Positions 11,799-38,933 of a DNA stretch of 47,515 bases are shown here, piece by piece (positions within the stretch are counted from its first letter, which is position 1; each line of letters opens with the position of its first letter). The translations under genes and the position numbers were made by a program. The notes under the pieces are model-generated. The model had not been told where the DNA came from. It searched no databases and worked only from the letters and a program-made list of their open reading frames with translations. Source of the DNA: a virus; IMG/VR virus record IMGVR_UViG_3300035034_000318, positions 1-47,515 of that record. One strand, 5' to 3'.

Positions 11799-14700
11799 AT
11801 GTCAGCAACAGATAGACAGAATCGATTACTAGTAGCAGAAGATTGGAAGCGAGTTTACCAGACCTTCCGTAACGCAGATTTCCAGAGTTACGATTTTGAC
11901 AATCTAAGACGCACAATGATTTCGTACTTGCGCGAGAATTACCCAGAAGACTTTAATGACTATATTGAGTCTTCGGAGTACCTTGCTCTTGTTGACCTGA
12001 TTGCGTTTCTAGGGCAGAACCTTGCTTTCCGTATTGATCTAAACGCCCGAGAAAACTTCTTAGAGCTCGCAGAACGTCGAGAAAGCGTTCTGCGTTTAGC
12101 ACGCCTTATTAGTTACAACCCTAGCAGGAACCAAGCAGCAAACGGATTCCTTAAATTCTCGGCAGTGCGCACCTCGGAAGACCTGCTAGATAGTAACGGT
12201 ATTAACCTTAAAGGGCAATCAATCCAATGGAACGATAGTACTAACTCTAATTGGTACGAGCAGTTCATTAAGGTAATGAACACGTCTCTTCCTGTAAACG
12301 GAGTGTTTGGGCGACCTGCAAAGAAAGAAGAAGTAGCCGGCATACCGACCGAACAGTACAGAGTTAACGGACTTAATACCACTGTTCCGGTGTATAGTTA
12401 CCAGAAATCAATAGAAGGGAAAAACACGCCGTTTCAGATAGTATCGACTGATATAAGTGACGGTGACTTTTTTGAAGAACCACCGTTACCAGGAAATAAC
12501 TTTGCTTTTCTCTACAGGAATGACGGCCGCGGCCCAAGTAGTACAAATACAGGATTCTTTGTGCATTTTCGCCAAGGTGTTCTCGATAACGGTCAGTTTA
12601 CAGTTACTCAGCCAGTAGCAAACCAAACTGTTGCTATCGACACAACTAATATTAATGACACAGATATCTGGTTATACAAATTAGATTCGAACGGTAATGA
12701 ACAAGAGTTGTGGACCAAAGTTGATAGCGTTGAAGGTAACAATATTATCTATAATAGTATCAGTAAAAACATTCGTAATGTGTTTAGTGTGTTAACTAGA
12801 GTAGACGATCGAATTAACTTAATCTTCTCGGACGGTGTATTTGGTGAATTGCCGAAAGGCAACTTTAGGTCATACTATCGAATAAGTGAAAATAGAAGTA
12901 TGGTAATTACTCCGGGTGCAATGTCAGGTATTAATTTCTCTATTCCTTATTTGAGCAAGCTTGGTAAGCAAGAAGAAATTACATTTACTGTTGAGTTACA
13001 GACTACAGTTTCGAACTCAGCAACTAGCGAAACAAATGCTAGCATTAAAGCTAATGCGCCTGCTACCTATTACACACAAAACAGAATGATTACTGGTGAA
13101 GACTATAACGTAGCTCCGTTAGCAGTGAGCCAAGAAATTGTAAAGGTTAAGTCGATTAACCGTACATCAAGTGGTATCTCACGGTACTTTGATTTAATTG
13201 ATGCTACTGGAAAATATAGCAGTACTAACCTGTACGGCAACGACGGAATTGTGTACAAGGAGTATATTGATAGAACTACATCTTTTTCATTCGAAACACA
13301 GACTGATATCGAAGGAGTTATTATTAATGAAATTGAACCTATATTTAAGGATAAGAAGATAAATCATTTTTACTTCGATAAGTTCCCGGTAATTAGTGCT
13401 GCTGACTTAAATGTATTTTGGTTAGTGACGTCTAGCGACACTAATACATATACAGGATTCTTTAGTAACGATCCTACTAATCCGGATTCCGGATTAGTAA
13501 AGGTCGGAGCATTTACTACTTCGAATCTTCGATATGTTACTGCTGAGAGCTTAGTTAAATTTGTGCCTCCAACGGGATACTATTTTACTAAAGATCATGC
13601 GCTGATGCCTGGATCTGCTAGTAAAGTCGGAGACAAGACAGCTATATGGACTAAGGTATTTGCAGTTGCAAGTAACGGTGTTGACACAACTATTGCACCT
13701 GGATGGGGAGCTGTGGCACTAAGCGATAATATTCCGCACGGTGCGTTATTAACTGAAATACGTCCTAAGATTGCAGGGTCGTTGCTTGACGACGTCAAGC
13801 GGCAAGTGATTGACCAAACGTTTGCGTTTAATAATTTTGGACTACGGTTTGACGCCGGAACTCGGCAATGGAGGTTAATTAAAGCTGCTAACTTAAACGC
13901 AAGAAGCTCGTTTAACGCAGGATTTGCCGGCGACCTAAGCGGCCAAGGCCTTGATGCTAGCTGGTTAATAAAGTTCGAAACTTCTGGAGAACGATACAAG
14001 GTTACATACCGTGGCCTTCGATACGTGTTTGAAAGTGACGAGGAAATACGATTCTTCTATGATTCTATAGATAAAATATACGACAGTAGAACAGGTAAGA
14101 TTATTAAAGATAAGATCTCTATATTAAACATCAATACCGCACCTGATAGTGCTGCTCCGTTTCTGTCTAACTTTGACTGGGAAATATTGTCAGAGTACAG
14201 AGACAAAGAAGGATATGTTGATACTACTCGTGTTGAACTTACGTTTTTTGACAGTGACGACGATGGAGTAGTTGATGACCCTGAGCTATTTAAAAACATT
14301 GTAGCTCCTGAGTCAACTGATAAAGACGGAAATACAAATATACTAAGTAAGACAGTAGTGCAAGAAAAGTATGTAACTTCGGCAGGAACTGAAGATTACC
14401 AATACGCAGACTACGAAGATCTTAATATAAAACTATTGATAAGCGACAATGATCTAGGACCATTAAGTGCCGAAATTGACGGCCAAGTATTCTACTTTAA
14501 TGATTCTGGGTTATTTAAGGTACTAGATAAACGAACATTAACGTTAAGTATTACTAGCGATTACAAAGCATTTGTTGGTAGAGACCACCTTAAGTTTCAC
14601 TATATACATACGGCAGATTCGAACAATAGGATAGATCCGAGCTCGAGTAACATTATGGATACATACTTGTTAACACGCGGATATGACAGGCAGTACAGAC

Positions 14701-15296
14701 TTTATTTAGACGGCCAGCTAACAGAAAAGCCACTTCCGCCTAGTTCGGATCAACTATTTAGGTCGTTCGGAAGGTCTATTAATAAGATAAAGTCAATAAG
14801 CGACGAAGTAATTTATCACCCAGTTAAGTACAAAGTACTTTTTGGATCAAAGGCGAACGAAGATTTGCAGTCAACATTTAAAGCAGTAAAGAATCCTGAT
14901 CAAGTGTTAAATGACAACGACATCAAAACACGGATCATAAGCCTTGTTAATCAATACTTTGCTATTGACAACTGGGACTTTGGCGATACGTTTTACTTCC
15001 AGGAACTAGCCACTTTTGTTATGAACAGAATGGCACCGGATTTAGTTACATTTATTATTGTTCCAAACCAGGCAGAACAAGGTTTTGGCAGTTTATTTGA
15101 AATAAGGTCAGAACCGGACGAGATTTTTATTAGTGGAGCATCAGTAAATGATGTCATACTAATAGATGAAATTACAGCATCACGATTAAATGCTAATGGC
15201 ACAGTTGTTACAACATCAGATATGCCGACTAATAGAGGGCTACAGAGCACTCAGTCAGTCGGCACGCTAAACAGTACTGGGGGACTTAGTTACTAA
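11799..15296 (+). CDS. 6: gp6-like baseplate wedge protein
   Basis: A 1,165-residue wedge protein. The N-terminal 120 residues carry the gp6/gpJ-type signature: D-F-Q-S-Y-D-F-D-N-L-R-R, then S-S-E-Y-L-A-L-V-D-L-I-A-F-L-G-Q-N-L-A-F-R and R-E-N-F-L-E-L-A, then R-L-I-S-Y-N-P. In T4, dimers of gp6 form the continuous ring of the baseplate. T4 gp6 is about 660 residues; the extra length here lies mainly in the middle and C-terminal half, as in other marine T4-likes I recall. A late-type promoter and RBS precede it, and its TAA overlaps the ATG of the giant gene by one base. Confidence 0.9.
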   Translation: MSATDRQNRLLVAEDWKRVYQTFRNADFQSYDFDNLRRTMISYLRENYPEDFNDYIESSEYLALVDLIAFLGQNLAFRIDLNARENFLELAERRESVLRLARLISYNPSRNQAANGFLKFSAVRTSEDLLDSNGINLKGQSIQWNDSTNSNWYEQFIKVMNTSLPVNGVFGRPAKKEEVAGIPTEQYRVNGLNTTVPVYSYQKSIEGKNTPFQIVSTDISDGDFFEEPPLPGNNFAFLYRNDGRGPSSTNTGFFVHFRQGVLDNGQFTVTQPVANQTVAIDTTNINDTDIWLYKLDSNGNEQELWTKVDSVEGNNIIYNSISKNIRNVFSVLTRVDDRINLIFSDGVFGELPKGNFRSYYRISENRSMVITPGAMSGINFSIPYLSKLGKQEEITFTVELQTTVSNSATSETNASIKANAPATYYTQNRMITGEDYNVAPLAVSQEIVKVKSINRTSSGISRYFDLIDATGKYSSTNLYGNDGIVYKEYIDRTTSFSFETQTDIEGVIINEIEPIFKDKKINHFYFDKFPVISAADLNVFWLVTSSDTNTYTGFFSNDPTNPDSGLVKVGAFTTSNLRYVTAESLVKFVPPTGYYFTKDHALMPGSASKVGDKTAIWTKVFAVASNGVDTTIAPGWGAVALSDNIPHGALLTEIRPKIAGSLLDDVKRQVIDQTFAFNNFGLRFDAGTRQWRLIKAANLNARSSFNAGFAGDLSGQGLDASWLIKFETSGERYKVTYRGLRYVFESDEEIRFFYDSIDKIYDSRTGKIIKDKISILNINTAPDSAAPFLSNFDWEILSEYRDKEGYVDTTRVELTFFDSDDDGVVDDPELFKNIVAPESTDKDGNTNILSKTVVQEKYVTSAGTEDYQYADYEDLNIKLLISDNDLGPLSAEIDGQVFYFNDSGLFKVLDKRTLTLSITSDYKAFVGRDHLKFHYIHTADSNNRIDPSSSNIMDTYLLTRGYDRQYRLYLDGQLTEKPLPPSSDQLFRSFGRSINKIKSISDEVIYHPVKYKVLFGSKANEDLQSTFKAVKNPDQVLNDNDIKTRIISLVNQYFAIDNWDFGDTFYFQELATFVMNRMAPDLVTFIIVPNQAEQGFGSLFEIRSEPDEIFISGASVNDVILIDEITASRLNANGTVVTTSDMPTNRGLQSTQSVGTLNSTGGLSY

Positions 15297-16426
15297 TGTC
15301 TAACACCGATCAAAATGATTTTCCGCTACCAGCTAATGGTAACGGCGATAGAAAAAGTTCGAACCTATTACCTAAGTATTTTAGGACGCAGGTTAACGAA
15401 AAGTTTTTAGGTAGTACACTAGACCAAATGGTTCAGCCAGGTGTTGCTGAGAAAGTTTCAGGATATTACGGCCGCAAAACAGCCAAGGCGTATCGAGCTA
15501 ACGATACTTACATTGAAGATGTAAGCGAACAGCGCCAGAATCGTCAGCTAGAACCTGCAACTATTGTTAAGGACGACTTAGGAAATGTTGAGTTTTTCAG
15601 TGACTACCCTGACTTTATAAACCAAATAAAGGCGTTTAACGGTGATGTGTCTAACCACAGTAAGCTAAACGCCCAAGAGTTCTATGCGTGGAATCCTAAC
15701 GTAAATTGGGATATGCTAACAAACTTTCGAGAATATTTCTGGCTACCAACAGGTCCGCGGACTGTTAAAATTGCTGGTCAATCAAAAGACATCACAAGTT
15801 CGTACAGTGTTGTAACACAAGACCAAGGCGACAACACTACGTATAAATTCTCGGGCAGACTTGCTTCTAACCCTACACTAACACTCTATCGTGGGCAAAC
15901 TTACAGGTTTGAGATTAACTCACCTGGGTTTCCTATTGCATTTACTGTTGACAACAACTTTTCTATTCCTGATCCTGACAACGAAAGCATTAATATTGCA
16001 AGTGAGTACACTAAAGGACAACGATTCTTTGATGCAAGCGGCGTCGAAGTTGCTCCTCAATACATTGAAGAGGGGGTTATTGAATTTACAGTTCCTTTAG
16101 AAGCCCCTAATCATCTGTTTTATTTGAGCGAAAGTGATATTAATACAAGCGGGTTTATTCGAATCTTTAACATCGAAGAAAACACTGCAATTAACGTCGA
16201 AGAAGAAATTTTAGGCAAGACTTCGTATACTAGTTCGAATGGCGTAGTTCTTACAAACGGCTTAAAGGTGTCTTTTTTAGGTACTGCTACTCCGGAGAAA
16301 TACAGTACTGGCCAATGGTATGTTGAAGGCGTTGGAGAAGGAATTAAGCTAGTAAGTGAAACTGATCTAGTTATTCCGGCTGCGTATGCAGACGACATCT
16401 TAGTACCGTGGGGATCTAGTGACTAG
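15296..16426 (+). CDS. N-terminal part of giant virion protein, ending at an in-frame amber codon
   Basis: 376 codons from an ATG overlapping the gp6 stop to TAG at 16424-16426. The N-terminus (L-L-P-K-Y-F-R-T-Q-V-N-E-K-F-L, then Y-Y-G-R-K-T and W-N-P-N-V-N-W-D-M-L) and the cupredoxin-like stretch at about 195-285 (L-Y-R-G-Q-T-Y-R-F-E-I, H-L-F-Y-L) look like well-conserved virion protein sequence. The frame is not finished at the TAG: the same frame continues without another stop to 30403 (see the next entry). If the TAG is a true stop the product is a 376-residue fragment; if it is read through or is an error, this is the start of a 5,035-residue protein. By position after gp6 it may be the counterpart of wedge protein gp7; that is inference. 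Confidence 0.8.
   Translation: MSNTDQNDFPLPANGNGDRKSSNLLPKYFRTQVNEKFLGSTLDQMVQPGVAEKVSGYYGRKTAKAYRANDTYIEDVSEQRQNRQLEPATIVKDDLGNVEFFSDYPDFINQIKAFNGDVSNHSKLNAQEFYAWNPNVNWDMLTNFREYFWLPTGPRTVKIAGQSKDITSSYSVVTQDQGDNTTYKFSGRLASNPTLTLYRGQTYRFEINSPGFPIAFTVDNNFSIPDPDNESINIASEYTKGQRFFDASGVEVAPQYIEEGVIEFTVPLEAPNHLFYLSESDINTSGFIRIFNIEENTAINVEEEILGKTSYTSSNGVVLTNGLKVSFLGTATPEKYSTGQWYVEGVGEGIKLVSETDLVIPAAYADDILVPWGSSD
16424..16426 (+). other. In-frame TAG codon (codon 377) inside the giant gene
   Basis: Reading from the ATG at 15296: TGG GGA TCT AGT GAC TAG GAC AAC TTA CCA, with the frame unchanged on both sides. The next 73 codons, before the first initiator-type codon (TTG at 16646), are open and look like conserved protein, including D-Y-I-V-I-N-R-S-S and A-W-S-R-Y-N-R-W-F-H. 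The first in-frame ATG is near 17216 and has no Shine-Dalgarno. A new gene start is therefore unlikely; this is amber readthrough, suppression, mutation or a base-call error. Confidence 0.9.
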
Positions 16427-19400
16427 GACAACTTACCATTTGATAGTTCAAACGGATATGCTGGCACCAAGGACTATATTGTAATAAACAGATCTAGCGG
16501 GGACCGAAACGCTTGGTCGAGATACAACCGTTGGTTCCACTCTAGTACTATAGCTGCTGCTGCTCGTTATAATAATGTTACTGACGATCTTGATCAGTCT
16601 GCGCGAGCAACTCGTCCTATTATCGAATTTGATGCCGGTCTTAGGTTGTTTGACTACGGTACTCAAGCTAAGAACGATGTTGATTTAGTAGATGACTATA
16701 CTACTGACGTATTTTCTACAGTAGAAGGCAGTATCGGTTATAACGTCGACGGTGTCGCACTTGCTGAAGGTCAACGCATTCTTTTTACTGCTGACACTGA
16801 CGTAAGAGTAAGTGGAAAGATTTATCGCGTAACATTTGTACAATATAACAACAATAAGCAGATTTCGTTAATCGAAGAACCTGATGCTGAGCCAATAACT
16901 AATGAAGTCGTATTGGTTACTACTGGAAATAGCAACCAAGGTAAGCTATACTGGTTTGACGGAACTACTTGGAAGAAGACTCAAGAAAAAACTAAGAACA
17001 ATCAGTCACCTTTGTTTTCCTTATACGACAGCGCCGGCAACGAGTTTAGTGACATTTTGGTATATGATGAATCGTCGTTTACTGGTAGCACTGTATTTGA
17101 ATACAAGGTGGGCACGGGAAGCGTAGACCACGAGTTAGGATTTCCTCTTAGTTACCGAACTATTGAAAACGTTGGAGACCTACAGTTTAACTTTTCGTTA
17201 GTCAACGAAAACTTTATGTATCGAGAAGGCGACGCTCTGTTTACTAAAGAAACAGACATAGGGTACCTAAGACGGTATTCGAACCTTGACGACTATTCCG
17301 TTCAGAATGGTTGGGCTAAAACAAAAACACCGAGTAGTCAAGCAGTTATTAGACAATACATTGTTGAAGAACCTACTAACGAGTTTGTAATTGATGTGTA
17401 TGACCAAAGCAGTTCGATTGCCGACCTCTCCGTTAAGGTAGTATTAGATCAATCTCTGCAATTATTGGATACGGATTATTCTATAGACCGTACTAGTAGC
17501 AACGCGGTAGTTGTGTTTAATAAATTACTACCAGTTAACTCTAATGTTATACTAAAGTTGAAAAGTGCAACTTCTAAAAATAACATCGGGTACTACGAGA
17601 TTGCATACAACCTAGAAAGAAATCCCCTTAACAACAAGATTGGCGAGTTTACGCTTGGAGAAGTAAATGACCATGTTGAAACTATTGCTGCAAATGTTGC
17701 AAACTTTAAAGGTAAATTTCCTGGACCAAGTAACCTGCGAGATCTCGGCCAGCTAGATGCATACGGCCAAAGATTTGTTCAGCACACTGGGCCGTTCAAC
17801 CTTGCTAATTACCACATTACTGATAAAGACGCAAACATTGTTAAGGCATTGCGATACAGCCGATCTGAGTACGCTAAGTTTAAGAGAGTACTACTACAGA
17901 CTGCCGAAGATCTAGGATTTGATGGCACTCCTCGTCAGCAGTTAGACCTAACCCTAAGTCGCGTTAATGCAAATAAAAGTGCAAGTATGCCGTTCTATTT
18001 TACTGACATGTTGTGTGCTACAGCATCGCGCACTCTGGAATATATAGTTCCAGCAGGTGGTGAAAACTTCTATGCATTAACAGATCCGTTTACTCTTGAA
18101 TCAATTAGTGCAAAATCGGTCCTTGTGTACCTTAATTCAGTGCAGCTAATACACGGAATAGACTATACCTTTAACAAAGAAGGGTTTGTGGACATTAGCG
18201 CACTTCTTACTAAAGGCGACTTGATTGAAGTAGTAGAATGTGATACTACTGACGGATCATATATTCCTGCTACTCCTACTAAGTTAGGCCTGTATCCTGC
18301 TTATCTCCCCCAAATGTTTGTTGACAACACATATAAAACTCCGCAGACAGTTATTCAAGGTCATGACGGTAGTATTGTGCTTGCATATAATGATTACCGA
18401 GATGATATTATTCTTGAGTTTGAGTTACGAGTCTATAACAACTTGAAACAGGCTTATAATACAGACTTATTTGATCTAGATGACTTTGTTCCTGGCGATT
18501 TTAGAAATACCGGATACACAATAGATTCAATTAATCGATCAATGTCTGCTGATTTTGTTGAATGGGCAACGGTATCTGGTGACCCGGATTATACTTCGAA
18601 CTCAAAAGTTGACGTATCTAATCCGTTTACGTTTAATTACTCGAGTATGCTGTCGCCGTCCGGTGTTAATCTATCCGGTACATGGAGAGCAGTTTATACT
18701 CATGCATATGACACAGACCGTCCGCACACTCATCCTTGGGAAATGTTAGGATTGTCGATTAAGCCAACATGGTGGAACGAAGTTTACGGGCCGGCACCTT
18801 ATACTAGAAACAACCTAATATTGTGGGAAGACTTACAGTACGGCATCTTGCGGCAGCCTGGCACAGCACTTGTGCGCAATAAGAAATACGTTCGTCCCGG
18901 TTTGCTAACACACATTCCGGTAGACGATAGTGGCAACCTACTAAGTCCTCTAGATAGCGGGTATGCTAGAAACTTCGTTACTAGGTTAACTAAAGCCCTG
19001 TTTAAGTTTGGTGACTATACTCCTGCCGAAACTGCATGGCGCCGCGGCTCTGAATATCCGTTCAGTATTATTACTGCAAGAGTGTTAAATCAGCCACATA
19101 CTACTTTTGCAACTGGCTTTGACTTGTCAAGAGTGAAAAGAAACCAAGTAGGACAAATTATTTACACTGAGTCTGGCAAAGTAATTCGCTTACAGGACAT
19201 TGTATTTCCTAATGGCACTGATGATGTTAATCGCGTTAGTACTAGTGGTTTAGTAAACTACGTCTTTGATTACTTAGCAAGCAGTGTCGAAAGACAGCAC
19301 AATGTTTATAAGAGTCAGCTTAGTAGAATTACAAACCAGCTAAGAATTAAAGTTGGTGGCTTTACAGAGAAAGAAAAGTTTAGTTTAATCCTTGACAGCA

Positions 19401-22400
19401 GAAACCCTCTTAACGAAGGAAACGTTTTCCTGCCAATAGAGAACTACCAAGTATTCTTGAACACTAGTTCGCCAGTTGACGTAGTAACATATAGCGGTGT
19501 AATTATTGAAAAGACAGACTCGGGGTTTGTTGTAAAAGGTTACAACAGAGAAAACCCATCGTTTGAATATTATCCGCCAATAGAGGCTACTACTGACCCT
19601 GTAATAAACATCGGCGGAGTGAGCGAACAGTACGTTAACTGGGCTGCTGCTAAGCAGTACGTTAAGGGACAGAACGTAAGATATAACAGTTTGTTCTATC
19701 GAGTTACTGAGTCGCACGTGAGCAATAACGTATTCGACACTGACAAGTTTAGTAGGATTGCTTCGCTACCACAAATTGGCGGCCGAGAAGCAATTCTGCG
19801 CAGGAATTTCCAAAGTAGAACTCGAGAGTTATCGTACGGTACTGTTTTGCTTACTGTGCAAGATGTAGTTGACTTTTTATTAGGGTACGAAATTAGTCTA
19901 TTAGAGAAAGGATTTGCGTTTGAATTCTTTAACAAGGACACTAATCAAGTAGAGAATTGGACGTACAGTGTTAAAGAGTTTTTGTTTTGGACTACTCAGA
20001 ACTGGTCAGCAGGCAGCATTATTACTCTAAGTCCGAGTGCAGAACAAGTTAAGTTTAGCCGCGATTATGTTGTAGTTGACGATATATTTGACAACTTCTA
20101 TCCGTACTCATTGTTAGCAGCAAACGGCAGTAAGTTAGAAAGAAAGTTTAGCAGTATTTCTCGTAGTAATCAAAACGAATTTGGCCTGCGCTCATTAAAT
20201 ACTGCCGACGGAATCTATCACATTAAATTGCCGCTAGTGCAAAAAGAACATGTAATCCTGCTTGATAACCGTTCAGTGTTTAATGACGTCATATATGACT
20301 TAGAAGCTGGGTACAGGCAAGAACGTATTCGGGTAACTGGATACAGAAGTGACAACTGGAACGGCGCATTAGATATTCCTGGGTTCATTTACGACAGCGC
20401 AGTAGTAGTAGATTGGGAAGCCTGGACTGATTATTCAATTGGCACTCTAGTAAAATATAAAGAATTCTTTTATGTGTCGACGTATGATGTTCCAGGTACT
20501 AACGTGTTTATAGCAAACGCATGGGAGCGGTTACAAGACCGTCCAGAAGCTAAGCTGATACCTAACTTTGACTATAGGATTAGTCAGTTTGCAGACTTTT
20601 ATGACTTGGATACTGATAACTTTGACGTTGAGCAACAACGACACGCTCAGCATTTAATCGGTTACCAGAAGCGCCGTTATCTACAAAATATTATAAATGA
20701 TGATGTTTCGCAGTACAAGTTTTATCAAGGATTTATTCAGGATAAAGGGACTGTGAATGCGTTATCTAAGTTATTTGATGCATTGGGGTCAGCTGACAAA
20801 GACAGCTTAGAGTTTTACGAAGAATGGGCAATACGTCTTGGCAGATACGGCGACACAGACAACGCAGAGTTTATTGAGGTGTTACTGGACGAGAGTCAGT
20901 TTAAATTATCACCGCAGCCTATTGAGCTAGTCAACCGACTACCAGAAAATTCTGTAGACAATGTTTATCGCCAGCGCCCATTTGAGATTTACGCTACGCC
21001 TGAAGGATACAATAGCAATCCGTTTCCTATAGTTAAAAAGAATCCGTTTCAGCTTAGATCTGCAGGTTACGTAAGAGTAGACGACGTGGCGTTTAGAGTA
21101 CCTAACGCATCGGATATACTTGACGGCGATGTAACTAGTGTTGGTTACGGTGATTACATCTGGGTCTTTGGTCTTACCGAAGACTGGGATGTCTTGGAGC
21201 ACGTTAGAACTGTCCTAAGAGCAGTTAGCATCGAAGCAACTTCGGATGCTCGGGCTATTATTGAGTTTAATACAAATACTAAGAGTTTAGTTGTAGGGCA
21301 ATACATAGGAGTACAAAATCTTCTATCTACAAACAATAACTTCTATAGGATTGAAGAGTTAACTTCGAGTGCAGCAACAGTGACGGTGCCTAGCGGAGTA
21401 TCAATAACAGACCAAACAGGTGCCTCGGGCTTTGTTAGTACGTTAAGAAGTGTTCGCGTATTAGATTTAGTTCAAGCAAATACAGTAGTACAACAATCGC
21501 TAACTCCTGGACAGCGCGTGTGGATTGACGGAAATTCATATGATGACTGGTCGGTTTATGAAAATCAAGAAGTATATTCTGAAACAAATTCTATTGATAA
21601 TTTACAAAAAGTGTCACCGGGCACCGATTATGCTAGAACGTTAGCAGCATCGCGAGATAACACTAAAGTTGTTATAGGTGATCCTTCTAGCGATAGCGGT
21701 GTAGTATATATATACGCCAGAGGAGCAGAGTCAAATGAGCTAAAGTACCAGACAGAATTGTCGCAACCGTCTGCACTGCGTAACGGCGCGTCCTCTGGAG
21801 CAGGCTTTGGTTCTAGTGTTGCAATTAGTCCAGACGGTAACTTCCTTGCAGTAGGGTCACCGACAGCATCAAACATTGTGACTCCGTTTGTGGGACAGTA
21901 CCTTCCTATTACTGATTATGCTACTGGCGACATTGTTAGCTACGGCAACCAGTACTGGGAGGCAATTAGGCCTGTCCTATCTAGCGGATCTAATGACTCA
22001 TTTAATACATTTGATAGTTATGCGTTTTTGCAGAACAAGATATTAGATTCAACTCCGTTTACTGTTAAATTAATAATGCAAGGAGCTCCGTATATTCCGG
22101 GTGTAGAAGATATCGACCACTTCCTAATACGAGCGCCTTACGCTGCATATTTAAACAGTATTAGTAAGTTGGTGTTAGAAAACCCGAACAGCGGACTACC
22201 AGAAACAGTTAGTGTTGACAAGTTAGTGCTAAGGTGGAACAGTTACTCCAACGTAACGGATAAATCTAGTCTTGACGTAGTGGATCCGTTTACTGCTCGC
22301 GAACCTTTTGGAAACTCTTTTGATGTTCCGGTAAGTGTTACTTCGGCAATATCTAGTAACTTTATCAATGCTGGTCAACACGAGATTGAACAGAAGGTTG

Positions 22401-25400
22401 ACAACATTTTATACATAGATACTACTTACATTGTTCCGGTTATTGGTGACGTAGTAGAAACTGATTCGGGCCGCGGAACAGTGTACGATGTATACTCAAA
22501 AGGATTTAGTGCAGTATTATATATAATTGACGTCGAAGGCACCTTTAGAGAATCCGGAATACTGTTTTCTAAAAACCTAGAAGTAGGTCGTTACATGCAG
22601 CCAAGTGGCCCGGCCAACCCAGAGTTTGGAGGATATTGGGTTATAAAGACTTCGGTGACCTATAAAAACTCTCCGGATACAACTTTGCAACTATCTGATT
22701 ACGGTATACCTGGTACAGGCCTAGTATACCGAGACTATATTCAATACCGCAGAGCCAACGACAACTTTGCTCAAGCATTGTTGCCGAGTCGCATTGACGA
22801 AATAGAGTTTACTAATATTCTGGATACAGTCAATAATCACGGAACTGACAAGGATCGGAGCTTTATTACTAGCTTATCTTATAGAGGTGACAAACAAGAA
22901 ATTCTGCAAGATAACCCGGACAGCCGATGGGTAATACGTTTGCCTAAGCCTAACGAAAATGATAGTGTAATTCAGGACAAATATACTGTAGGCACTGATT
23001 TTACGATATGGGTTAACGATACTGATAGTCCTGACAGTATTAACAATATAGAAAATTACGGCCTTATGTACGATTACATAAATGGTACTACTATAGCTGA
23101 TCGCAGCGTACATACTGTTAGTGACCTATGGGACGGCTACATTGACTTTACGTTTACTAGCACCCAGGTTGATACTGATGTTGATTACGACGGCTTCGCT
23201 GATTACTACGAACCCGACGGTTCGCTTGGCATCCAGGATGTAGAGGTATTTGATAATAGTACCGGAGCAAGAGCGAGCGTAGTCTTTTATCAGAAGTATG
23301 GTGATCAAGGACGAGTTTACTTAAAGAACACAGTTGGTGAGTTTGAAGAAACTAATTCGCTTATGATTGACACACTTGAGTTTGATACAACGGCATTCCG
23401 TGCTGTGCGGGTTGTTGGTCTTATTAGTTATGTTTCTATGTCAAATGATACTATAGGCAAATTAGCAGTTATTGACAAAGGTTTAGATTTCCAAGTAACC
23501 GATACTGCTAATTTTAATGACGCTGCTTTAGTAAACGGCGAATATTGGTTCTATGACGTAGCAACGGTGCAAGGCCTAGGAGAATTGGCAGAGTATCCAG
23601 AAACGCAAGGTCTTGATTGGAAGCAAGTATTCAATATACCTATTGATGTCGACGGACAACCAGGAACCAATGCAGAACAAGGTGCGTATACTGTTTATAA
23701 AAGAACAGGCCGCGCTTGGGATTCTCAGGGGACATTTGTTATTCCTGACGCAATTGCTGGCGAAAACGCAGCAAAAGACCTTGACTTTGCGCAGCATGGT
23801 GAGCTCTATAGACTGTATATCTCGACTAACCGAAGAGTGTACGTAGTAAAACACGGTACTGACAGCAACGGCAATGAATATGACTGGGCACTCGATATAG
23901 ACCCAAAATACCGCGGCAGCTGGTTTAACATCCAGCGTTCGGTTACATTTGATACTGGGGACATTGTTACTGACGTATACGAAGTTAAAGACGAAGCAGG
24001 ACAGAGTTTTGTTCCGACTAAATTAGCCGTGGCGCTGTTTAGTGCAAAAACAGTAGTTTCTCCTAATTCAGTAAGACCTGCTAACAACACTGACCAATGG
24101 GATATGATAGACTACCGCGTTACAGTAGAGCCGTTTGTACCTCACGTACTAACGGAAGACCTTTACGGCGAAAACGTGTTTTTTGACACTGGGCAGACTG
24201 AATATGCTGCCGATACTTCGGTCTCGGCTAATGGTCAAGTTTTAGCAACTACTGTAATTACTAAGAAAACAGTAGGTCAAGATGTAGTTACAAATAATCG
24301 CGTGTTAGTTTATAGAATACAAGATGAGCGATATGTACTGAATCAAATAATAGATACTGTGGTACCTAATACTAGATTTGCCGAGAGCATATCGTTGTCG
24401 CCGAGCGGCGAATACCTAGTTATAGGAGAACCAGGTAGTGATGTATATGATTACGACCAAGGTCGAGTTCGTGTATATCAGTTAGATGCAGGCCAATTTG
24501 TACTATTGCAGACTTTAGTATCACCAAGAGACGATGTTGTTGAAATGTTCGGTTACAAAGTTAGTGCAACAGACACTGCTATTTCGGTAGTTAGTTTTAA
24601 CGGTGACATTGTATTGCCGACAACATTCGATAAAAATGCTAGTAGTGAGACCTCAGCTGACAACGACTTTACAAGCTTTTCGACAACTATTGTTAACTCT
24701 GGTAGTGTTACTATTTACGATAATGTTGAAGGCACTTTCTTATACGCTGACGCATTAGAATATGCTGATGCGAAGTCTTCGGAATTTGGCGAAACAATGA
24801 TTGCTGTGCGTAATCATATATATGTAGGACTTCCGCGCGCTAACCGAGATGATACTATAGGTACAATGTCAGACTTCCGTCGAGTACAAGGAGTTAGTGC
24901 TTGGACTAAGATAAGAACACCACTACCGATAGTTGATCTAAATAAGATGAAAGAATTGTTCTTGTTTGATACTAGAGATAATCAACTAGTGTCTTACCTG
25001 GATTACATTGACGTGCGTCAGGGTAAAATTGCAGGCCCGGCAGCAGAACAGATTGACTTCCGTACATTTACCGATCCTGCTCGTTATAATATTACAGACG
25101 ACACGCGATTCTTTGACGAAGCAAATAACTGGGAAGAGGAGCACGTTGGTAGAGTATGGTGGGATTTGAGTGCTGCTCGATTTGCTTCGCCATATCAAGG
25201 CGACGCAGTGTATCAAAGTGCTAACTGGAACGACTTACTTCCTGGGGCAAGCATTGACGTTTACGAGTGGGTTAAAAGTGCTGTTATTCCGTCAGAGTGG
25301 GATGCTCTTGCAGACACAAATGAAGGCATTGCTCGAGGAATAAGTGGTCAGAGCTTATATAGTGATGCTGTATATTCTCAAAAGTTAACATACGACTATG

Positions 25401-28400
25401 TTGCAAAGACATTTGGTAATGTTTATTACTTCTGGGTGTCAAACAAATTCACTACTCCTAATATCATTAGAAGAACGCTTAGTGTGGGCAACATTGCGCG
25501 GCTAATTGAAAATCCGTTCCAGGAAGGTTACTCGTTTGTTAATTTTACTGCTAGCAATAGATTTGTAATACACAATGCAGAAAGCCAAATATCTGGCAAA
25601 GATACTGCATTGGCGATAAGTTATTTCACACTTGAAAACCAAGAACAGAATGTTCACGATGAGTATCAGTTACTATCAGAGGGGCTTGGTACTAGTGTTC
25701 CTAAGAAAGACATCGAACGCAAGTGGGTTGATAGTTTAGTAGGATACGATGAGCAAAGTCGCGTGGTTCCCGACCCAAGTATAAGTCCTAGACAGATGTA
25801 CGGCACTTTATTCTACCCACGCCAAAGCTGGTTTGTTAACAGATTAGAGGCACTCAAGCAAGTAGTCGAGCGTGCTAATCTGTCATTGATGAAAAAGCCA
25901 ATTGTCGATAGTCGGAACTTAGCTACAATGTTGTCCGAAGATCCTATACCGTCAGTAAGTAATAAGCTTTATGACTATGCTATTGATTCGGTAGAAGAAC
26001 TTCGGTTTATTGGAACCAGTAAAGCAGCTACAGCAAACATCACTGTTGAAGTTGATGACGGCAAAGTGATCGGAGTTACTATCAACAATACCGGTCGAAG
26101 ATACCAAGACCTAGCACACGATATAGCTAGTAACGCACCTAGAAACGGACCAACGGTTACTGTTTACGGTACAGGTACAGGCCTTGACTTAGACTTGTTT
26201 ATAAACAACTTAGGCCAGATAACTGATTATGACATAGTTGATCCTGGAGAAGGGTATGCAAACAATATTACTGCAACAGTTCGTCCTATTAGTGCGCTTG
26301 TTCGATCTGATTCAACAATTGGCGGACGATGGGCAATATACTCCTGGAGTAGCGAAGCTAGCGAATGGCAACGTACACAAACTCAAAAGTATGATGTCAA
26401 GAAGTACTGGAAGTATACTGACTGGTACAGCGAAGGCAATAATCAGTTTACGTTGGTAAACCAGTTAATTGAAGGCACATACCAGTTACCTGCTTTAGAC
26501 AATAGTATCGGCGACGTTGTTAAAGTTGTTAATATCGGCGCAGGTGGATGGGTACTACTAAGGAAGGTCGACGATGTAGATACATTTGACTTTACCATAA
26601 ACTATGAAACTATAGGTCGTCAGGGCGGAACTTTGCAGATCGATGCTGCCCTATATGATAACTCAAAGAACCTTGTAGGGTTTGATACATTCAGATACGA
26701 TAGTAAGTTCTTTGATACAGAGCCTTCTACTGAAATTAGATTAATTATGAAGGCACTTAAACAAGACTTATTAACAGATGACTTAGCAGTTGACTATAAC
26801 GAGCTATTCTTCTCAAGTATTAGATACGTGTTTTCAGAACAGCTTAATGTAGACTGGGCATTTAAGACTAGTTTTGTAAAAGCTAAGCACAATGTTGGTT
26901 CTCTAGAACAGAAGGTTACTTTCCGTAATAGCAATTTACCAAGCTACAACGAATACGTTGAAGAGGTAAAGCCGTACAAGACCAATATCCGAGAGTATGT
27001 AAGTGCACTTGAAAGCATTGAAGAAACAAATTCTGTAGTAACGGACTTTGACTTACCTCCTCGCTATAATGCAGCCGAAGATAAGATACTGCCAGTTCCT
27101 GTTAGAGTAGTTAACGACGAACTAGTTAGTGCCGATGGTCTATTTAGTACGTATCCGGACAAGAACTGGAGAGACAACATTGGATTCAAGATTACTAAGA
27201 TCTCAATTGCAAATGCCGGAACAAAGTATCTTTATGCTCCGATAGTAACAATTGAAGGCGGCGGCGGAAGTGGAGCAACAGCTCGAGCGTATGTTGGAAA
27301 AGGTCAGCTAATTAAGATCCAAGTGGTTACACAAGGATCGGGATATACTAGTACGCCAAGAGTAGTTATTACTCCTCCCGCAAATAGCGAGGGAATAGTT
27401 GCAACGGCTACTGCGGTACTAGGAGAGTCGGTAGTACGTAGCATGAAAGTGTGTGTTAAGTTCGACAGAGTGTCGGGAACTGTAGCAATCCTATCTCTGG
27501 CGCAGCAACAGAATATTACGGGCACAGGAGCAAACACTGCGTTCGCGCTGAACTGGCCTATGGATTTAAAAACTAACAAGGTTGCTGTTACAATCGACGG
27601 TGAAGAAGCTCTTAGAAGCGAATACACCTACAAGAACGTAGTAGACACTAGCTTATCCTACACTCGAAACTTAGGTCAGATTGAGTTTGCTAGTCCTCCT
27701 GCTTTTGGAGCAACAGTAGTAGTAAAATACAATAAGTCACCAGAACTATTAATGGCAGCAGAGCGTATAGAGCATCTATATGCACCGACTAGCGGAATGA
27801 TAGGCGCGAAAATTCCGCAGCTAATGTCGGGTGTGGACTACGGCGGAGTTGAAGTTAAGAGCTTTGATTTCGATACATCAACTGGATGGGACAACGATGC
27901 TTGGTCGTCCGACGGCTGGGATATGTACGACACTACTTACGAAGATCTTGTATTCCGCTTAGACGGTAGCACTATTGTACTTGAGTTTGATACTCCTCTC
28001 GAGGACGGTATTGAGTATAATATCTATAAGAACGGAGTGCGAATTGACGAAGCAGAATACGATATCTCAACAATACCAGTAAACGAAAATGCAATGACTC
28101 CGACAATAGTCGGCGACGGCAGTACTACTAGATTTAACCTAGACGATTGGGCTATCCCGGCAGCCGACGGCGACGTGTTTATCGTTCGTAAGTCAACTAG
28201 TGACGGGAGCTATGCTCCTGACCCAGCAAGTTACGACACGCAGTTATCTGGTGGACGCCTTGATTACGGCAATGCAACCGGATTAAACGCAGAAGATATT
28301 ATCGTTGACGGTGACAACTTTGTTACTCCTACAACTAGTTCAGGTCCAGAAGAGATGGTGCCTGGACAAGTACTTGACACTGTTGATATTAAGGTGTTCG

Positions 28401-30403
28401 AACGTATAGGCGACGGCCAAGGCGAGATTATTAATCAAAACTACATTACTAATGGAGTACAAGACACGTACGAACTAGGGATTGTGCCAAATAGTTTAGA
28501 TGCTGTTATAGTTAAGGTCAACGGTACTATACTTGCTGATAGTTTGTATTCAATTGATTATGAGTCACTTACTGTGACACTTGATCCAATTATTGACGCA
28601 GGACAAAGGTTGACTATCTTGACAGTTGGCATGAACGGCAATAATGTGCTCGACACTGATACAATAATATCGGACGGAGTAACTACCCAATATCTAACTA
28701 GTGTTGCATGGCAGCCGGCACTAAACACCGTTGTAACGGTTAACGGAATAATATACACAGAAGCAGACGTAGTTGCTATAGAGCAAACTGGGCGAGTTGT
28801 GCTTAGCTTTGTAACTGCACCCGCAACTGGCAATGTTATTGATTATGCTGTATTTGACTCAGCAAACGGTGTCAGTAGCTTTAGCAGAGTGTTACGAGAC
28901 ACGTTTGAAGGGGACGATAGTTCGGCAACATTTATACTATCACAAACTCCTAAGGTTAAAGAACCAGTTGAGTTCTTTACACTAGTTGATGTTAGCGGTA
29001 TGATTCAAAATCCGGGATATAGTAAACAGTTTGTTGTAGATAACGCAGCCACATCGGACTACCAGTTTGATACGTTTCAAATTCCAAAGGCTACTATTGT
29101 GCCGTCGCTAGTACGTGTGTTCAATAACACTGTAGAACTGCAACGAGGTGTTGACTTTGTTGTTGACATTGCTAATAGTGGAATTAGAATAGGCGTAGGA
29201 GTACTTACTTCTGGTGACACGCTGTACGCTTACTACACTAAAGATGCAGATTATTTCATAAATGGTAACGAAATAACGTTCACTGACACTGTAGCAGCAG
29301 GAAACAGTGCTAACGTGTATCAATTTACAAACCACAACGTGCTTGACATAGACAGGATCGGGTACACAGTAAAAGAAACTAGTTCACTAACACCGGGCTC
29401 GGAAGAGTTTACCACGTATGCAGATCTATTAAGAGGAAGAATAAGCCTGTATACTCCGGCAGTCGGTACACAGTATGTATGGGTAGCAGTTAATGGTAAG
29501 TTACTAACTCCGTCAACAGATTACACTTTGTCTATTGACAAGAGTGTAGTCTACCTAGTTACTGCTCTGTCGATAGGCGACGAAGTTGATATAATCCACT
29601 TCTCTGCGCAAGTGCGCACACAGAGAATGGCATGGAGTAAGTTTAAAGACATTCTTAATAGAACTCATTACAAGAGATACGATAACGATAGTGGCCAGGA
29701 ATTAGCTGACGCACTGTACCCAGATGATTTATACGTTTCGGTTGTTGATGCGTCTGGATTACCGATACCGAGCAGAAGTACAAACAAGCCCGGCATCATC
29801 TTTATTGAAGGCGAGCGAATTGAGTATTTCATTAAAGACGAAGCTAATAACAAATTGCGTCAGCTACGTCGAGGCACATTAGGAACAGGAGTAAAAGATA
29901 TGTACTCGGCCGGTGCAGTTATTGTTGATAGCAGTAGTATAAAAAACATACCTTATAACGACGAGCTAGTAAGCGAAGTAATTGAAAACGACGGTAGTTC
30001 GGTTGTATATGGTACTAAATTTAACCTAACAGGATTTAACTTACGGTATGGCCAAACCTATAAAGACTTCTTTGAGGTGTTTGTAGGCGGCAAGAGATTG
30101 CGCAAGAACGCTGTTCAGGTTTATCAGTTTGATATGGTAGACGAGAATGGTGATATTGTTCAAGCAATAGCACCAGATAGCCCAGCAGGCGATGTAGTTA
30201 CTGAAAATCAGTTTGATGTCATAGTAGACAGTGTAACAGGAAACGTTAGTCTAGAACTACTGATAGCACCTGGAACAGACGACCGCATAGTAATGGTACA
30301 AAAAACTGGTAAGCTCTGGAGTGATCCGGGAACTGCGCTTAAAGATGCTAACAATTCAATTGTTGATTTCTTGCGCGGAAGTATAAGTAAGCTGCCTGAA
30401 TAA
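16427..30403 (+). CDS. Giant virion structural protein, main part (possible gp7 position)
   Basis: 4,658 codons continuing the frame that begins at 15296; the first initiator-type codon after the amber is TTG at 16646. Numbering from 15296, visible modules are as follows. Three short Trp/Tyr-rich modules like carbohydrate-binding CBM5/12 lie near residues 1445, 1705 and 2200. FG-GAP-like propeller blades lie near 2110 and 2170 (S-P-D-G-N-F-L-A-V-G) and again near 2971-3190 (S-P-S-G-E-Y-L-V-I-G). A paired G-x-G-Y-x-x-x-P-x-V module with G-G-G-G-S-G-A follows near 3965-4040. Then come repeated beta-sandwich units with V-x-V-N-G and D-Y near 4080-4770. No membrane segment or catalytic motif is obvious. 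Its place between gp6 and the fibre genes suggests a baseplate or adsorption-apparatus protein. Confidence 0.85.
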   Translation, partial: DNLPFDSSNGYAGTKDYIVINRSSGDRNAWSRYNRWFHSSTIAAAARYNNVTDDLDQSARATRPIIEFDAGLRLFDYGTQAKNDVDLVDDYTTDVFSTVEGSIGYNVDGVALAEGQRILFTADTDVRVSGKIYRVTFVQYNNNKQISLIEEPDAEPITNEVVLVTTGNSNQGKLYWFDGTTWKKTQEKTKNNQSPLFSLYDSAGNEFSDILVYDESSFTGSTVFEYKVGTGSVDHELGFPLSYRTIENVGDLQFNFSLVNENFMYREGDALFTKETDIGYLRRYSNLDDYSVQNGWAKTKTPSSQAVIRQYIVEEPTNEFVIDVYDQSSSIADLSVKVVLDQSLQLLDTDYSIDRTSSNAVVVFNKLLPVNSNVILKLKSATSKNNIGYYEIAYNLERNPLNNKIGEFTLGEVNDHVETIAANVANFKGKFPGPSNLRDLGQLDAYGQRFVQHTGPFNLANYHITDKDANIVKALRYSRSEYAKFKRVLLQTAEDLGFDGTPRQQLDLTLSRVNANKSASMPFYFTDMLCATASRTLEYIVPAGGENFYALTDPFTLESISAKSVLVYLNSVQLIHGIDYTFNKEGFVDISALLTKGDLIEVVECDTTDGSYIPATPTKLGLYPAYLPQMFVDNTYKTPQTVIQGHDGSIVLAYNDYRDDIILEFELRVYNNLKQAYNTDLFDLDDFVPGDFRNTGYTIDSINRSMSADFVEWATVSGDPDYTSNSKVDVSNPFTFNYSSMLSPSGVNLSGTWRAVYTHAYDTDRPHTHPWEMLGLSIKPTWWNEVYGPAPYTRNNLILWEDLQYGILRQPGTALVRNKKYVRPGLLTHIPVDDSGNLLSPLDSGYARNFVTRLTKALFKFGDYTPAETAWRRGSEYPFSIITARVLNQPHTTFATGFDLSRVKRNQVGQIIYTESGKVIRLQDIVFPNGTDDVNRVSTSGLVNYVFDYLASSVERQHNVYKSQLSRITNQLRIKVGGFTEKEKFSLILDSRNPLNEGNVFLPIENYQVFLNTSSPVDVVTYSGVIIEKTDSGFVVKGYNRENPSFEYYPPIEATTDPVINIGGVSEQYVNWAAAKQYVKGQNVRYNSLFYRVTESHVSNNVFDTDKFSRIASLPQIGGREAILRRNFQSRTRELSYGTVLLTVQDVVDFLLGYEISLLEKGFAFEFFNKDTNQVENWTYSVKEFLFWTTQNWSAGSIITLSPSAEQVKFSRDYVVVDDIFDNFYPYSLLAANGSKLERKFSSISRSNQNEFGLRSLNTADGIYHIKLPLVQKEHVILLDNRSVFNDVIYDLEAGYRQERIRVTGYRSDNWNGALDIPGFIYDSAVVVDWEAWTDYSIGTLVKYKEFFYVSTYDVPGTNVFIANAWERLQDRPEAKLIPNFDYRISQFADFYDLDTDNFDVEQQRHAQHLIGYQKRRYLQNIINDDVSQYKFYQGFIQDKGTVNALSKLFDALGSADKDSLEFYEEWAIRLGRYGDTDNAEFIEVLLDESQFKLSPQPIELVNRLPENSVDNVYRQRPFEIYATPEGYNSNPFPIVKKNPFQLRSAGYVRVDDVAFRVPNASDILDGDVTSVGYGDYIWVFGLTEDWDVLEHVRTVLRAVSIEATSDARAIIEFNTNTKSLVVGQYIGVQNLLSTNNNFYRIEELTSSAATVTVPSGVSITDQTGASGFVSTLRSVRVLDLVQANTVVQQSLTPGQRVWIDGNSYDDWSVYENQEVYSETNSIDNLQKVSPGTDYARTLAASRDNTKVVIGDPSSDSGVVYIYARGAESNELKYQTELSQPSALRNGASSGAGFGSSVAISPDGNFLAVGSPTASNIVTPFVGQYLPITDYATGDIVSYGNQYWEAIRPVLSSGSNDSFNTFDSYAFLQNKILDSTPFTVKLIMQGAPYIPGVEDIDHFLIRAPYAAYLNSISKLVLENPNSGLPETVSVDKLVLRWNSYSNVTDKSSLDVVDPFTAREPFGNSFDVPVSVTSAISSNFINAGQHEIEQKVDNILYIDTTYIVPVIGDVVETDSGRGTVYDVYSKGFSAVLYIIDVEGTFRESGILFSKNLEVGRYMQPSGPANPEFGGYWVIKTSVTYKNSPDTTLQLSDYGIPGTGLVYRDYIQYRRANDNFAQALLPSRIDEIEFTNILDTVNNHGTDKDRSFITSLSYRGDKQEILQDNPDSRWVIRLPKPNENDSVIQDKYTVGTDFTIWVNDTDSPDSINNIENYGLMYDYINGTTIADRSVHTVSDLWDGYIDFTFTSTQVDTDVDYDGFADYYEPDGSLGIQDVEVFDNSTGARASVVFYQKYGDQGRVYLKNTVGEFEETNSLMIDTLEFDTTAFRAVRVVGLISYVSMSNDTIGKLAVIDKGLDFQVTDTANFNDAALVNGEYWFYDVATVQGLGELAEYPETQGLDWKQVFNIPIDVDGQPGTNAEQGAYTVYKRTGRAWDSQGTFVIPDAIAGENAAKDLDFAQHGELYRLYISTNRRVYVVKHGTDSNGNEYDWALDIDPKYRGSWFNIQRSVTFDTGDIVTDVYEVKDEAGQSFVPTKLAVALFSAKTVVSPNSVRPANNTDQWDMIDYRVTVEPFVPHVLTEDLYGENVFFDTGQTEYAADTSVSANGQVLATTVITKKTVGQDVVTNNRVLVYRIQDERYVLNQIIDTVVPNTRFAESISLSPSGEYLVIGEPGSDVYDYDQGRVRVYQLDAGQFVLLQTLVSPRDDVVEMFGYKVSATDTAISVVSFNGDIVLPTTFDKNASSETSADNDFTSFSTTIVNSGSVTIYDNVEGTFLYADALEYADAKSSEFGETMIAVRNHIYVGLPRANRDDTIGTMSDFRRVQGVSAWTKIRTPLPIVDLNKMKELFLFDTRDNQLVSYLDYIDVRQGKIAGPAAEQIDFRTFTDPARYNITDDTRFFDEANNWEEEHVGRVWWDLSAARFASPYQGDAVYQSANWNDLLPGASIDVYEWVKSAVIPSEWDALADTNEGIARGISGQSLYSDAVYSQKLTYDYVAKTFGNVYYFWVSNKFTTPNIIRRTLSVGNIARLIENPFQEGYSFVNFTASNRFVIHNAESQISGKDTALAISYFTLENQEQNVHDEYQLLSEGLGTSVPKKDIERKWVDSLVGYDEQSRVVPDPSISPRQMYGTLFYPRQSWFVNRLEALKQVVERANLSLMKKPIVDSRNLATMLSEDPIPSVSNKLYDYAIDSVEELRFIGTSKAATANITVEVDDGKVIGVTINNTGRRYQDLAHDIASNAPRNGPTVTVYGTGTGLDLDLFINNLGQITDYDIVDPGEGYANNITATVRPISALVRSDSTIGGRWAIYSWSSEASEWQRTQTQKYDVKKYWKYTDWYSEGNNQFTLVNQLIEGTYQLPALDNSIGDVVKVVNIGAGGWVLLRKVDDVDTFDFTINYETIGRQGGTLQIDAALYDNSKNLVGFDTFRYDSKFFDTEPSTEIRLIMKALKQDLLTDDLAVDYNELFFSSIRYVFSEQLNVDWAFKTSFVKAKHNVGSLEQKVTFRNSNLPSYNEYVEEVKPYKTNIREYVSALESIEETNSVVTDFDLPPRYNAAEDKILPVPVRVVNDELVSADGLFSTYPDKNWRDNIGFKITKISIANAGTKYLYAPIVTIEGGGGSGATARAYVGKGQLIKIQVVTQGSGYTSTPRVVITPPANSEGIVATATAVLGESVVRSMKVCVKFDRVSGTVAILSLAQQQNITGTGANTAFALNWPMDLKTNKVAVTIDGEEALRSEYTYKNVVDTSLSYTRNLGQIEFASPPAFGATVVVKYNKSPELLMAAERIEHLYAPTSGMIGAKIPQLMSGVDYGGVEVKSFDFDTSTGWDNDAWSSDGWDMYDTTYEDLVFRLDGSTIVLEFDTPLEDGIEYNIYKNGVRIDEAEYDISTIPVNENAMTPTIVGDGSTTRFNLDDWAIPAADGDVFIVRKSTSDGSYAPDPASYDTQLSGGRLDYGNATGLNAEDIIVDGDNFVTPTTSSGPEEMVPGQVLDTVDIKVFERIGDGQGEIINQNYITNGVQDTYELGIVPNSLDAVIVKVNGTILADSLYSIDYESLTVTLDPIIDAGQRLTILTVGMNGNNVLDTDTIISDGVTTQYLTSVAWQPALNTVVTVNGIIYTEADVVAIEQTGRVVLSFVTAPATGNVIDYAVFDSANGVSSFSRVLRDTFEGDDSSATFILSQTPKVKEPVEFFTLVDVSGMIQNPGYSKQFVVDNAATSDYQFDTFQIPKATIVPSLVRVFNNTVELQRGVDFVVDIANSGIRIGVGVLTSGDTLYAYYTKDADYFINGNEITFTDTVAAGNSANVYQFTNHNVLDIDRIGYTVKETSSLTPGSEEFTTYADLLRGRISLYTPAVGTQYVWVAVNGKLLTPSTDYTLSIDKSVVYLVTALSIGDEVDIIHFSAQVRTQRMAWSKFKDILNRTHYKRYDNDSGQELADALYPDDLYVSVVDASGLPIPSRSTNKPGIIFIEGERIEYFIKDEANNKLRQLRRGTLGTGVKDMYSAGAVIVDSSSIKNIPYNDELVSEVIENDGSSVVYGTKFNLTGFNLRYGQTYKDFFEVFVGGKRLRKNAVQVYQFDMVDENGDIVQAIAPDSPAGDVVTENQFDVIVDSVTGNVSLELLIAPGTDDRIVMVQKTGKLWSDPGTALKDANNSIVDFLRGSISKLPE

Positions 30404-30431: not shown

Positions 30432-31040
30432 ATGATAAATGAAATGAACGGCGTATTTATACAAGGACACCTTAAGATCCATGATCCGAAAACTGGCGAA
30501 GTTCTTGTTAATAAAAAGAATGCTATACATTACGAAAATATGAGTATAGCGTTGGCACAAAGTTTAGCCAACGCTGGTACCGGCCCAATTTCGGAAATGA
30601 GTTTCGGAAATGGCGGCACTAGTATAGACCCGACTGGTATTATTACCTATTTAACACCTAACTCAACCGGTACTAATGCTAGTCTGTATAATCAGACCTA
30701 CAGCAAGGTAGTTGATGACCGTAACGCAAGCAACTTAGATCCTACAAGAAATAAGATTGAAACACGACACGTTAGTGGTACAAACTATACCGACATTGTT
30801 GTGACTGCTTTGCTAGATTACGGCGAGCCTAATGGTCAAGATGCATTTGATACTGCGTCAAATACAAATTCTATGTTTGTATTTGATGAGATTGGACTAA
30901 GAAGTGCACCGGTTGCCGGGCAAACTGTTGGAAAGTTACTTACTCACGTTATTTTTCACCCAGAACAAAAGTCACTCAACCGATTAATACAGATCGATTA
31001 CACTGTCCGAGTACAGAGTCTTAGCGGAGGAAACGTGTAA
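30432..31040 (+). CDS. Conserved virion-associated protein before the fibre genes
   Basis: A 202-residue protein, soluble, with no signal or membrane segment. It opens M-N-G-V-F-I-Q-G-H-L-K-I-H-D and contains G-P-I-S-E-M-S-F-G-N-G-G and F-V-F-D-E-I-G-L-R-S, with a closing L-I-Q-I-D-Y-T-V-R-V; the pattern is beta-rich. It lies between the giant structural gene and three fibre-like genes, has its own late-type element, and ends in a TAATG overlap with the next gene. Its position is where T4 has outer baseplate and fibre-connecting proteins (gp8-gp10), and a connector role is plausible, but I cannot name the family. Confidence 0.6.
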   Translation: MINEMNGVFIQGHLKIHDPKTGEVLVNKKNAIHYENMSIALAQSLANAGTGPISEMSFGNGGTSIDPTGIITYLTPNSTGTNASLYNQTYSKVVDDRNASNLDPTRNKIETRHVSGTNYTDIVVTALLDYGEPNGQDAFDTASNTNSMFVFDEIGLRSAPVAGQTVGKLLTHVIFHPEQKSLNRLIQIDYTVRVQSLSGGNV

Positions 31041-35101: not shown

Positions 35102-35131
35102 TTGTTTTGCTTTGTTTAGAACTTAGCATCG

Positions 35132-35139
35132 GATAAATA
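35132..35139 (+). promoter_or_regulatory. Late-type promoter before fibre paralogue 3
   Basis: GATAAATA at 35132-35139 in the 67-bp gap; the leader would carry AAAGGGGA before the ATG at 35169. It resembles the other late elements. Confidence 0.55.
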
Positions 35140-35168
35140 ATAAAAGCACATAAAGGGGACATGCAAAC

Positions 35169-37741: not shown

Positions 37742-38095
37742 ATGGATGAACGACTCGAAAAAGCTTTAGACTTTTCAAACTATATGATTACGCTTAACAA
37801 CCAAAAGCGCATTCTTAAAGAACAGTTCCGTGAACAAATCATTTTTTATCACGCTGGCGCCCAGTTTACTGTGACCAAAGAGCTACTAACATTTGTTACT
37901 ATGTTAGTAGAAACTGAGCACGTTGAAAACGTGGTGCTAGTTGACGATAACGAAACCCCTGCAAAAATCGAAAACTTAGAAGCGTTCTTAGACGACATTA
38001 TGGACGTCTACTTCTCTGCTACTAACACGTTTCACACCGAGTACACTAAACTTAAGAACAATCGTTCTGTGGAGAAACTAACAGACTATGAGTAA
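37742..38095 (+). CDS. Small conserved-type protein, first gene of the accessory operon
   Basis: A 117-residue acidic, mostly helical protein: A-L-D-F-S-N-Y-M near the N-terminus, a short beta part (A-Q-F-T-V-T-K-E-L-L), a central L-V-E-T-E-H-V-E-N-V-V-L-V-D-D-N, and a C-terminal helix ending R-S-V-E-K-L. I recall similar small proteins in marine T4-like phages, with no known function. It has a strong AGGAG six bases upstream and its own promoter, and its end overlaps the first glycosyltransferase by 8 bp. Confidence 0.6.
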   Translation: MDERLEKALDFSNYMITLNNQKRILKEQFREQIIFYHAGAQFTVTKELLTFVTMLVETEHVENVVLVDDNETPAKIENLEAFLDDIMDVYFSATNTFHTEYTKLKNNRSVEKLTDYE

Positions 38096-38933
38096 AGGTG
38101 TACTGGTATTTGCTCGCAACAACTATCAAATTGATTACATAAAACAGGCATACTTCCTCGCACGCCGAGTTTCGAAATATCTTAGCCTGCCGACTACGGT
38201 CGTTACGGACAGTAAAGACTACCTTTTGTGGAAGTATCCGGACGCTGAATCTGTATTTGATCACGTTATTATAGCAGACTGTAGCGACATGCCTGGTGAT
38301 AAAGTGTTTTACGACGGTGCTATGGTTTCTAAAACTCTTCGTTGGAGAAATGGTGACAGACCAGACTCGTACAATTTATCACCATACGACGAGACCCTAG
38401 TTTTAGATACCGATGTTGTAATTTGTAATGACATATTCTTAAAATGTTTTTCGGATCAAAACGACTTATTAATGTACAAAGAAAGCACTGACATTACTGG
38501 CATTGATAGGGGCAAGGAATTTATTACTATCTCAGACACTAGTGTTGATTTTTATTGGGCGACTGTGATCTTCTTTCGTAAAACCGAAACTAACAAAACC
38601 TTCTTTGACCTAGTTCGACACATACAAGATAATTGGGATCACTATAGGCATATTTTTCAACTGCGTACCAGCCAGTATAGAAATGATTTCTCGTTCAGTA
38701 TTGCAGCGCATATTATGAATGGGTACCAGTCTGGCAATTTTATTATGCCGGTGCCCGGGAAGTTGTACTACGTTACAGATAAATCTATACTTTGGCAGAT
38801 TGCTAGCGATAGCTTGCTCATATTGCTAGAGAAGCCCAAACATAACGGCGAATACACAGCTCTTAGAATAAAGAATGCTAACGTCCACGTAATGAATAAG
38901 TTTAGTTTAAATAGGTGCATTGATGAACAGTAG
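38088..38933 (+). CDS. Glycosyltransferase, GT-A fold, DxD type (copy 1)
   Basis: A 281-residue protein with the layout of nucleotide-sugar transferases: an N-terminal Rossmann-like strand (G-V-L-V-F-A-R-N-N) followed by a helix, V-V-T-D-S-K-D, and the metal/nucleotide-binding strand L-V-L-D-T-D-V-V-I (about residues 103-111). Later come F-Y-W-A-T-V-I-F-F-R-K-T and a C-terminal acceptor-side region. It is followed by, and related to, the next gene. The donor sugar and acceptor cannot be told from sequence. GGAGA lies 12 bases upstream of the start. It ends with TAG, the only true TAG stop I find in the window. Confidence 0.72.
   Translation: MSKGVLVFARNNYQIDYIKQAYFLARRVSKYLSLPTTVVTDSKDYLLWKYPDAESVFDHVIIADCSDMPGDKVFYDGAMVSKTLRWRNGDRPDSYNLSPYDETLVLDTDVVICNDIFLKCFSDQNDLLMYKESTDITGIDRGKEFITISDTSVDFYWATVIFFRKTETNKTFFDLVRHIQDNWDHYRHIFQLRTSQYRNDFSFSIAAHIMNGYQSGNFIMPVPGKLYYVTDKSILWQIASDSLLILLEKPKHNGEYTALRIKNANVHVMNKFSLNRCIDEQ

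Follow-up and report, generated by a model that had tools for sequence, protein, structure and literature searches.

The giant gene and its neighbourhood

The window analysed here is the whole of a 47.5-kb virus record (47,515 nucleotides) which, judging by its content, is a fragment, and its forward strand carries a frame of 5,036 codons that is interrupted once by an amber codon (Table 1). Apart from the terminal TAA at codon 5036, the TAG at codon 377 is the only stop in this frame, exactly as the original prediction had stated, and the chance probability of the 4,658 open codons at the base composition of the window is approximately 10^-135. The first in-frame ATG, GTG or TTG past the TAG is the TTG at 16646 (codon 451), such that the 73 codons following the stop are indeed devoid of any initiator, as had also been predicted. 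This TTG lacks a well-spaced ribosome-binding site, and none of the candidate starts close by has a convincing one. A frameshift artefact at the site was considered and rejected, as the alignment with relatives is in frame on both sides. The tetranucleotide CTAG is not unusual in the window, with 224 occurrences compared to 201 expected.

Table 1. Coordinates of the interrupted frame and of the amber codons in the window
Feature	Position	Strand	Remarks
Predicted giant virion/baseplate-associated protein gene	15296..30403	+	5,035 codons plus terminal TAA, one interruption at codon 377
ORF as it stands	16426 end, 15296 start (15296..16426)	+	376 residues, ends in TAG
In-frame TAG	16424..16426	+	position aromatic (TTT, TGG, TTC, TAT) in 95/95 aligned relative loci
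Rest of same frame	16427..30403	+	open up to terminal TAA; first possible start TTG 16646
TAG as true stop	38931..38933	+	ends gene 38088-38933; TAA at same place in two relatives

Matches of the giant protein to phrog_10938 lie both upstream (E 5e-27) and just downstream (E 1e-113) of the stop, and further ones follow along the gene. Over its full length the protein aligns with relatives in which the gene is a single ORF, of 5,014 and 5,024 codons counting the stop. The original proposal that one structural gene extends across the stop is thereby strongly supported, and sequence similarity places its product among the giant virion proteins (phrog_10938) that jumbo-type myoviruses encode, although the ORFs of relatives are uninterrupted whereas that of the window is broken at codon 377. 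The gene order is the same in close viral contigs, where the giant ORFs are single and span 4,505–5,024 codons, and the neighbouring genes in the window encode SbcC/SbcD-like nuclease subunits, a baseplate wedge, a hub/lysozyme and tail-fibre-like proteins. A DNA-level search of annotated phages returned no match, the N-terminal region has no sequence match among solved structures, and relatives among GTDB genome contigs reach only 38–39% and lie within metagenome-assembled genomes. Scanning with peptide patterns from a C-terminal piece of the giant protein returned no relatives; this part of the protein is covered by direct alignment with the full-length relatives.

Several further features of the window and its relatives were observed. 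About 500 residues of the giant protein (approximately 2224–2741, window 21965-23518) are absent from the closest relatives L103, L106, L109 and L116 and are kept in the more distant L111 and L114, whose ORFs align end to end. The baseplate hub/lysozyme protein (window 9012-11273) carries an endolysin-like domain at its C terminus, starting near residue 613, and its homologues in L107-L110 are without this domain and end at a TAA near residue 612. Window 31040-36647 holds three tail-fibre-like genes in tandem that are related to one another in their N-terminal parts, and relatives share the tandem arrangement. After the tail-fibre genes follows a cluster of three genes with separate Radical_SAM matches (41214-42617, 43717-44715 and 45294-46373), one of which is just under the Pfam cut-off. 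In the relative L112 (IMGVR_UViG_3300023049_000060), the homologue of the SbcC/gp46-like nuclease gene (window 1180-2952, reverse strand) is broken at the Walker A motif (GTGK|T), giving two ORFs side by side (13004-13273 and 13328-15316). These carry an apparent split intein, whose N part is short (37 aa) and whose C part terminates in FYTNGILSHN|T. A match to the VidaL intein 6vgv (E 7e-5) is obtained with the C part, relatives of which occur in 36 viral loci; the Pfam intein model is matched weakly, and the copy of this gene in the window itself is uninterrupted.

A private stop codon within a conserved frame

Alignment of close relatives at codon 377, which the original prediction had proposed as a check, yields a sense codon for an aromatic residue at every one of 95 loci, these including a few loci that overlap within the same contig: TTT at 82, TGG at nine, and TTC and TAT at two each. 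Position 377 thus marks a conserved, strictly aromatic residue of the giant protein, and none of the relatives displays a real gene boundary at the site, the outcome that had been named as speaking against an interrupted single gene. None of the other records examined carries a TAG at this codon, and pattern scans that allowed any codon at the site found no contig of the same species; two matches to a degenerate pattern were rejected as chance. In a tree of the first 877 residues, the window is sister to the clade bearing TGG (support 0.999), and the next groups out have TTT. Since TGG and TAG differ by one G-to-A step, the stop lies a single substitution away from the codon of the nearest relatives and is private to one record, as is characteristic of an error or a nonsense mutation.

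Because synonymous divergence (NG86 dS) is mostly saturated, relative-rate counts were used in its place. With L111 as outgroup and L103 as sister, the changes assigned to the window and to the sister number 33 versus 25 in residues 1–376, 123 versus 121 in residues 378–2223, and 178 versus 204 in residues 2742–5035, and the largest chi-square over all combinations is 3.3, with no acceleration either before or after the stop. This, together with the lack of any further accumulated stops, indicates that the TAG is either recent, absent in nature, or bypassed; we note that efficient bypass of the stop would leave the downstream frame with the same conserved appearance.

Within the giant gene, no stop is present in 199,405 aligned codons of the relatives (some loci overlap), which makes the lesion unusual for any one contig. 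Across all window genes and 100 loci, comprising about 347,800 codons, there are two comparable isolated stops (L058:772 and L045:2053), both of them an in-frame TAA in the baseplate wedge gene, the former at a position that is Gln in most homologues. Four further stop rows, from L107-L110, were discounted as one gene end common to related contigs. Two stops per 348,000 codons correspond to approximately 0.1 per window of this size, and with 1e-5 to 1e-4 substitution errors per base, 0.02–0.2 premature stops would arise per such window. A given contig will seldom show a lesion of this type, yet a scan of many contigs should be expected to turn one up.

Possible decoding or fission at the amber codon

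The phage, from outside the fragment, or its host could supply a tRNA through which UAG is translated, at least in late genes; this would account for an intact and conserved frame in what is a late structural gene. We regard such suppression or reassignment as improbable. TAG is indeed scarce as a terminator, as originally remarked, since 26 of the 27 other listed gene ends in the window are TAA or TGA and only the one at 38931 is TAG; the further suggestion that this scarcity suits recoding proved uninformative, because TAG is equally rare in close relatives that lack the amber at codon 377 (five of 84 stops, compared with 68 TAA and 11 TGA). In phages that recode TAG (table 15), many genes are interrupted, as in phAss-1 with 41 of its 147 ORFs (PMC10607447), whereas the window has a single in-frame TAG in 15,621 codons, compared with 577 Gln, 688 Tyr and 209 Trp codons. 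Nor is TAG avoided as a terminator, given that a gene truly ends at the TAG at 38931, and none of the relatives uses TAG within the giant gene. No tRNA gene was found in the window, and the only tRNA match among the contigs of relatives (one of 33) lies in a stretch that holds Leu(UAA) and Arg(UCU) tRNAs, such that no amber suppressor tRNA with a CUA anticodon is seen in the window or in these contigs, all of which are fragments. The missing suppressor is not decisive, because the gene may sit elsewhere in the genome and only 52.4% of predicted table-15 phages have one (PMC11210395). Overall, TAG reassignment is not supported on sequence grounds. Were the TAG nevertheless real in the population and decoded by a suppressor tRNA of the phage or its host, which we consider unlikely, one codon would gate a baseplate protein of 5,000 residues, the largest protein of a jumbo-type phage, and would thereby either control virion assembly or confine the phage to hosts that suppress amber codons.

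Programmed readthrough, in which most ribosomes would stop at 376 residues and some would continue to give two virion products in a set ratio, appears very unlikely. In an AlphaFold2 model of the residues of a relative that match 25–560 (mean pLDDT 67), residue 377 falls in a stretch with pLDDT below 50 that sits between better-predicted regions, so the short product might conceivably fold; this weak point in favour of readthrough leaves the model neither for nor against a stable short product. RNA folding around the TAG, modelled without pseudoknots, is no better than for shuffled sequence (z 0.25 to 0.76), no Rfam match is present in the window, and the stop and its context are not conserved, as none of the 95 loci has a stop at codon 377 and there is hence no visible selection for such a switch. 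Suppression and readthrough together have a low probability. A fission into two separate genes, the second starting at the TTG of codon 451 or the ATG of codon 641, is most unlikely, as protein-level conservation extends through the 73 to 263 codons that separate these possible internal starts from the stop, a convincing ribosome-binding site is lacking at both, and relatives show no gene boundary at the site.

Origin of the stop and comparison with known phages

The TAG at codon 377 is very probably a private single-base nonsense change in the giant gene of an uncultured jumbo-type myovirus, either a consensus error or a nonsense mutation, with no programmed recoding involved. Of the readings offered by the original prediction, mutation or consensus error fits all of the evidence, whereas readthrough and amber suppression are unsupported, because the amber is private at a position that is sense in all aligned relatives, no second gene is interrupted by TAG, the TAG at 38931 acts as a true stop, and neither an amber suppressor tRNA nor a recoding structure is seen. 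We suggest that an ancestral TGG, as in the sister clade, would by parsimony have been converted to TAG through one G-to-A step, and that the stop is probably not bypassed; the functional gene would then encode a single continuous protein of about 5,035 residues in which position 377 is aromatic. A consensus error in the metagenomic contig seems somewhat more likely than a true nonsense mutation, because a nonsense codon fixed in a conserved baseplate gene should be lethal in the absence of suppression. The case mainly illustrates that, where a metagenomic phage contig shows one isolated and private stop, relatives and reads should be consulted before recoding is proposed.

Among the closest parallels are the two isolated stops L058:772 and L045:2053. 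Each is likewise the one stop that breaks the frame of a conserved baseplate gene in this virus group, and past it the frame stays intact; they differ in being TAA and in affecting the neighbouring wedge gene rather than the giant gene. Among cultured phages, Agrobacterium phage Atu_ph07 (AUZ94962.1) and Pseudomonas phage Cassandra (WPK39118.1) encode proteins homologous to that of the window on both sides of the stop, although at only ~30% identity. In both phages the giant gene follows a large baseplate-wedge-type gene (annotated as baseplate wedge in Cassandra), a placement shared with the window, and, unlike in the window, it is one uninterrupted CDS. The TAG-reassigning phages, such as the crAss-like phages and phAss-1, resemble the window in having an amber inside a late structural gene. 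In these phages, however, TAG interrupts many genes and CUA-anticodon tRNAs are often present (PMC10607447, PMC11210395), whereas the window has a single in-frame TAG, which occupies an aromatic, non-Gln position, and TAG also ends a gene there.
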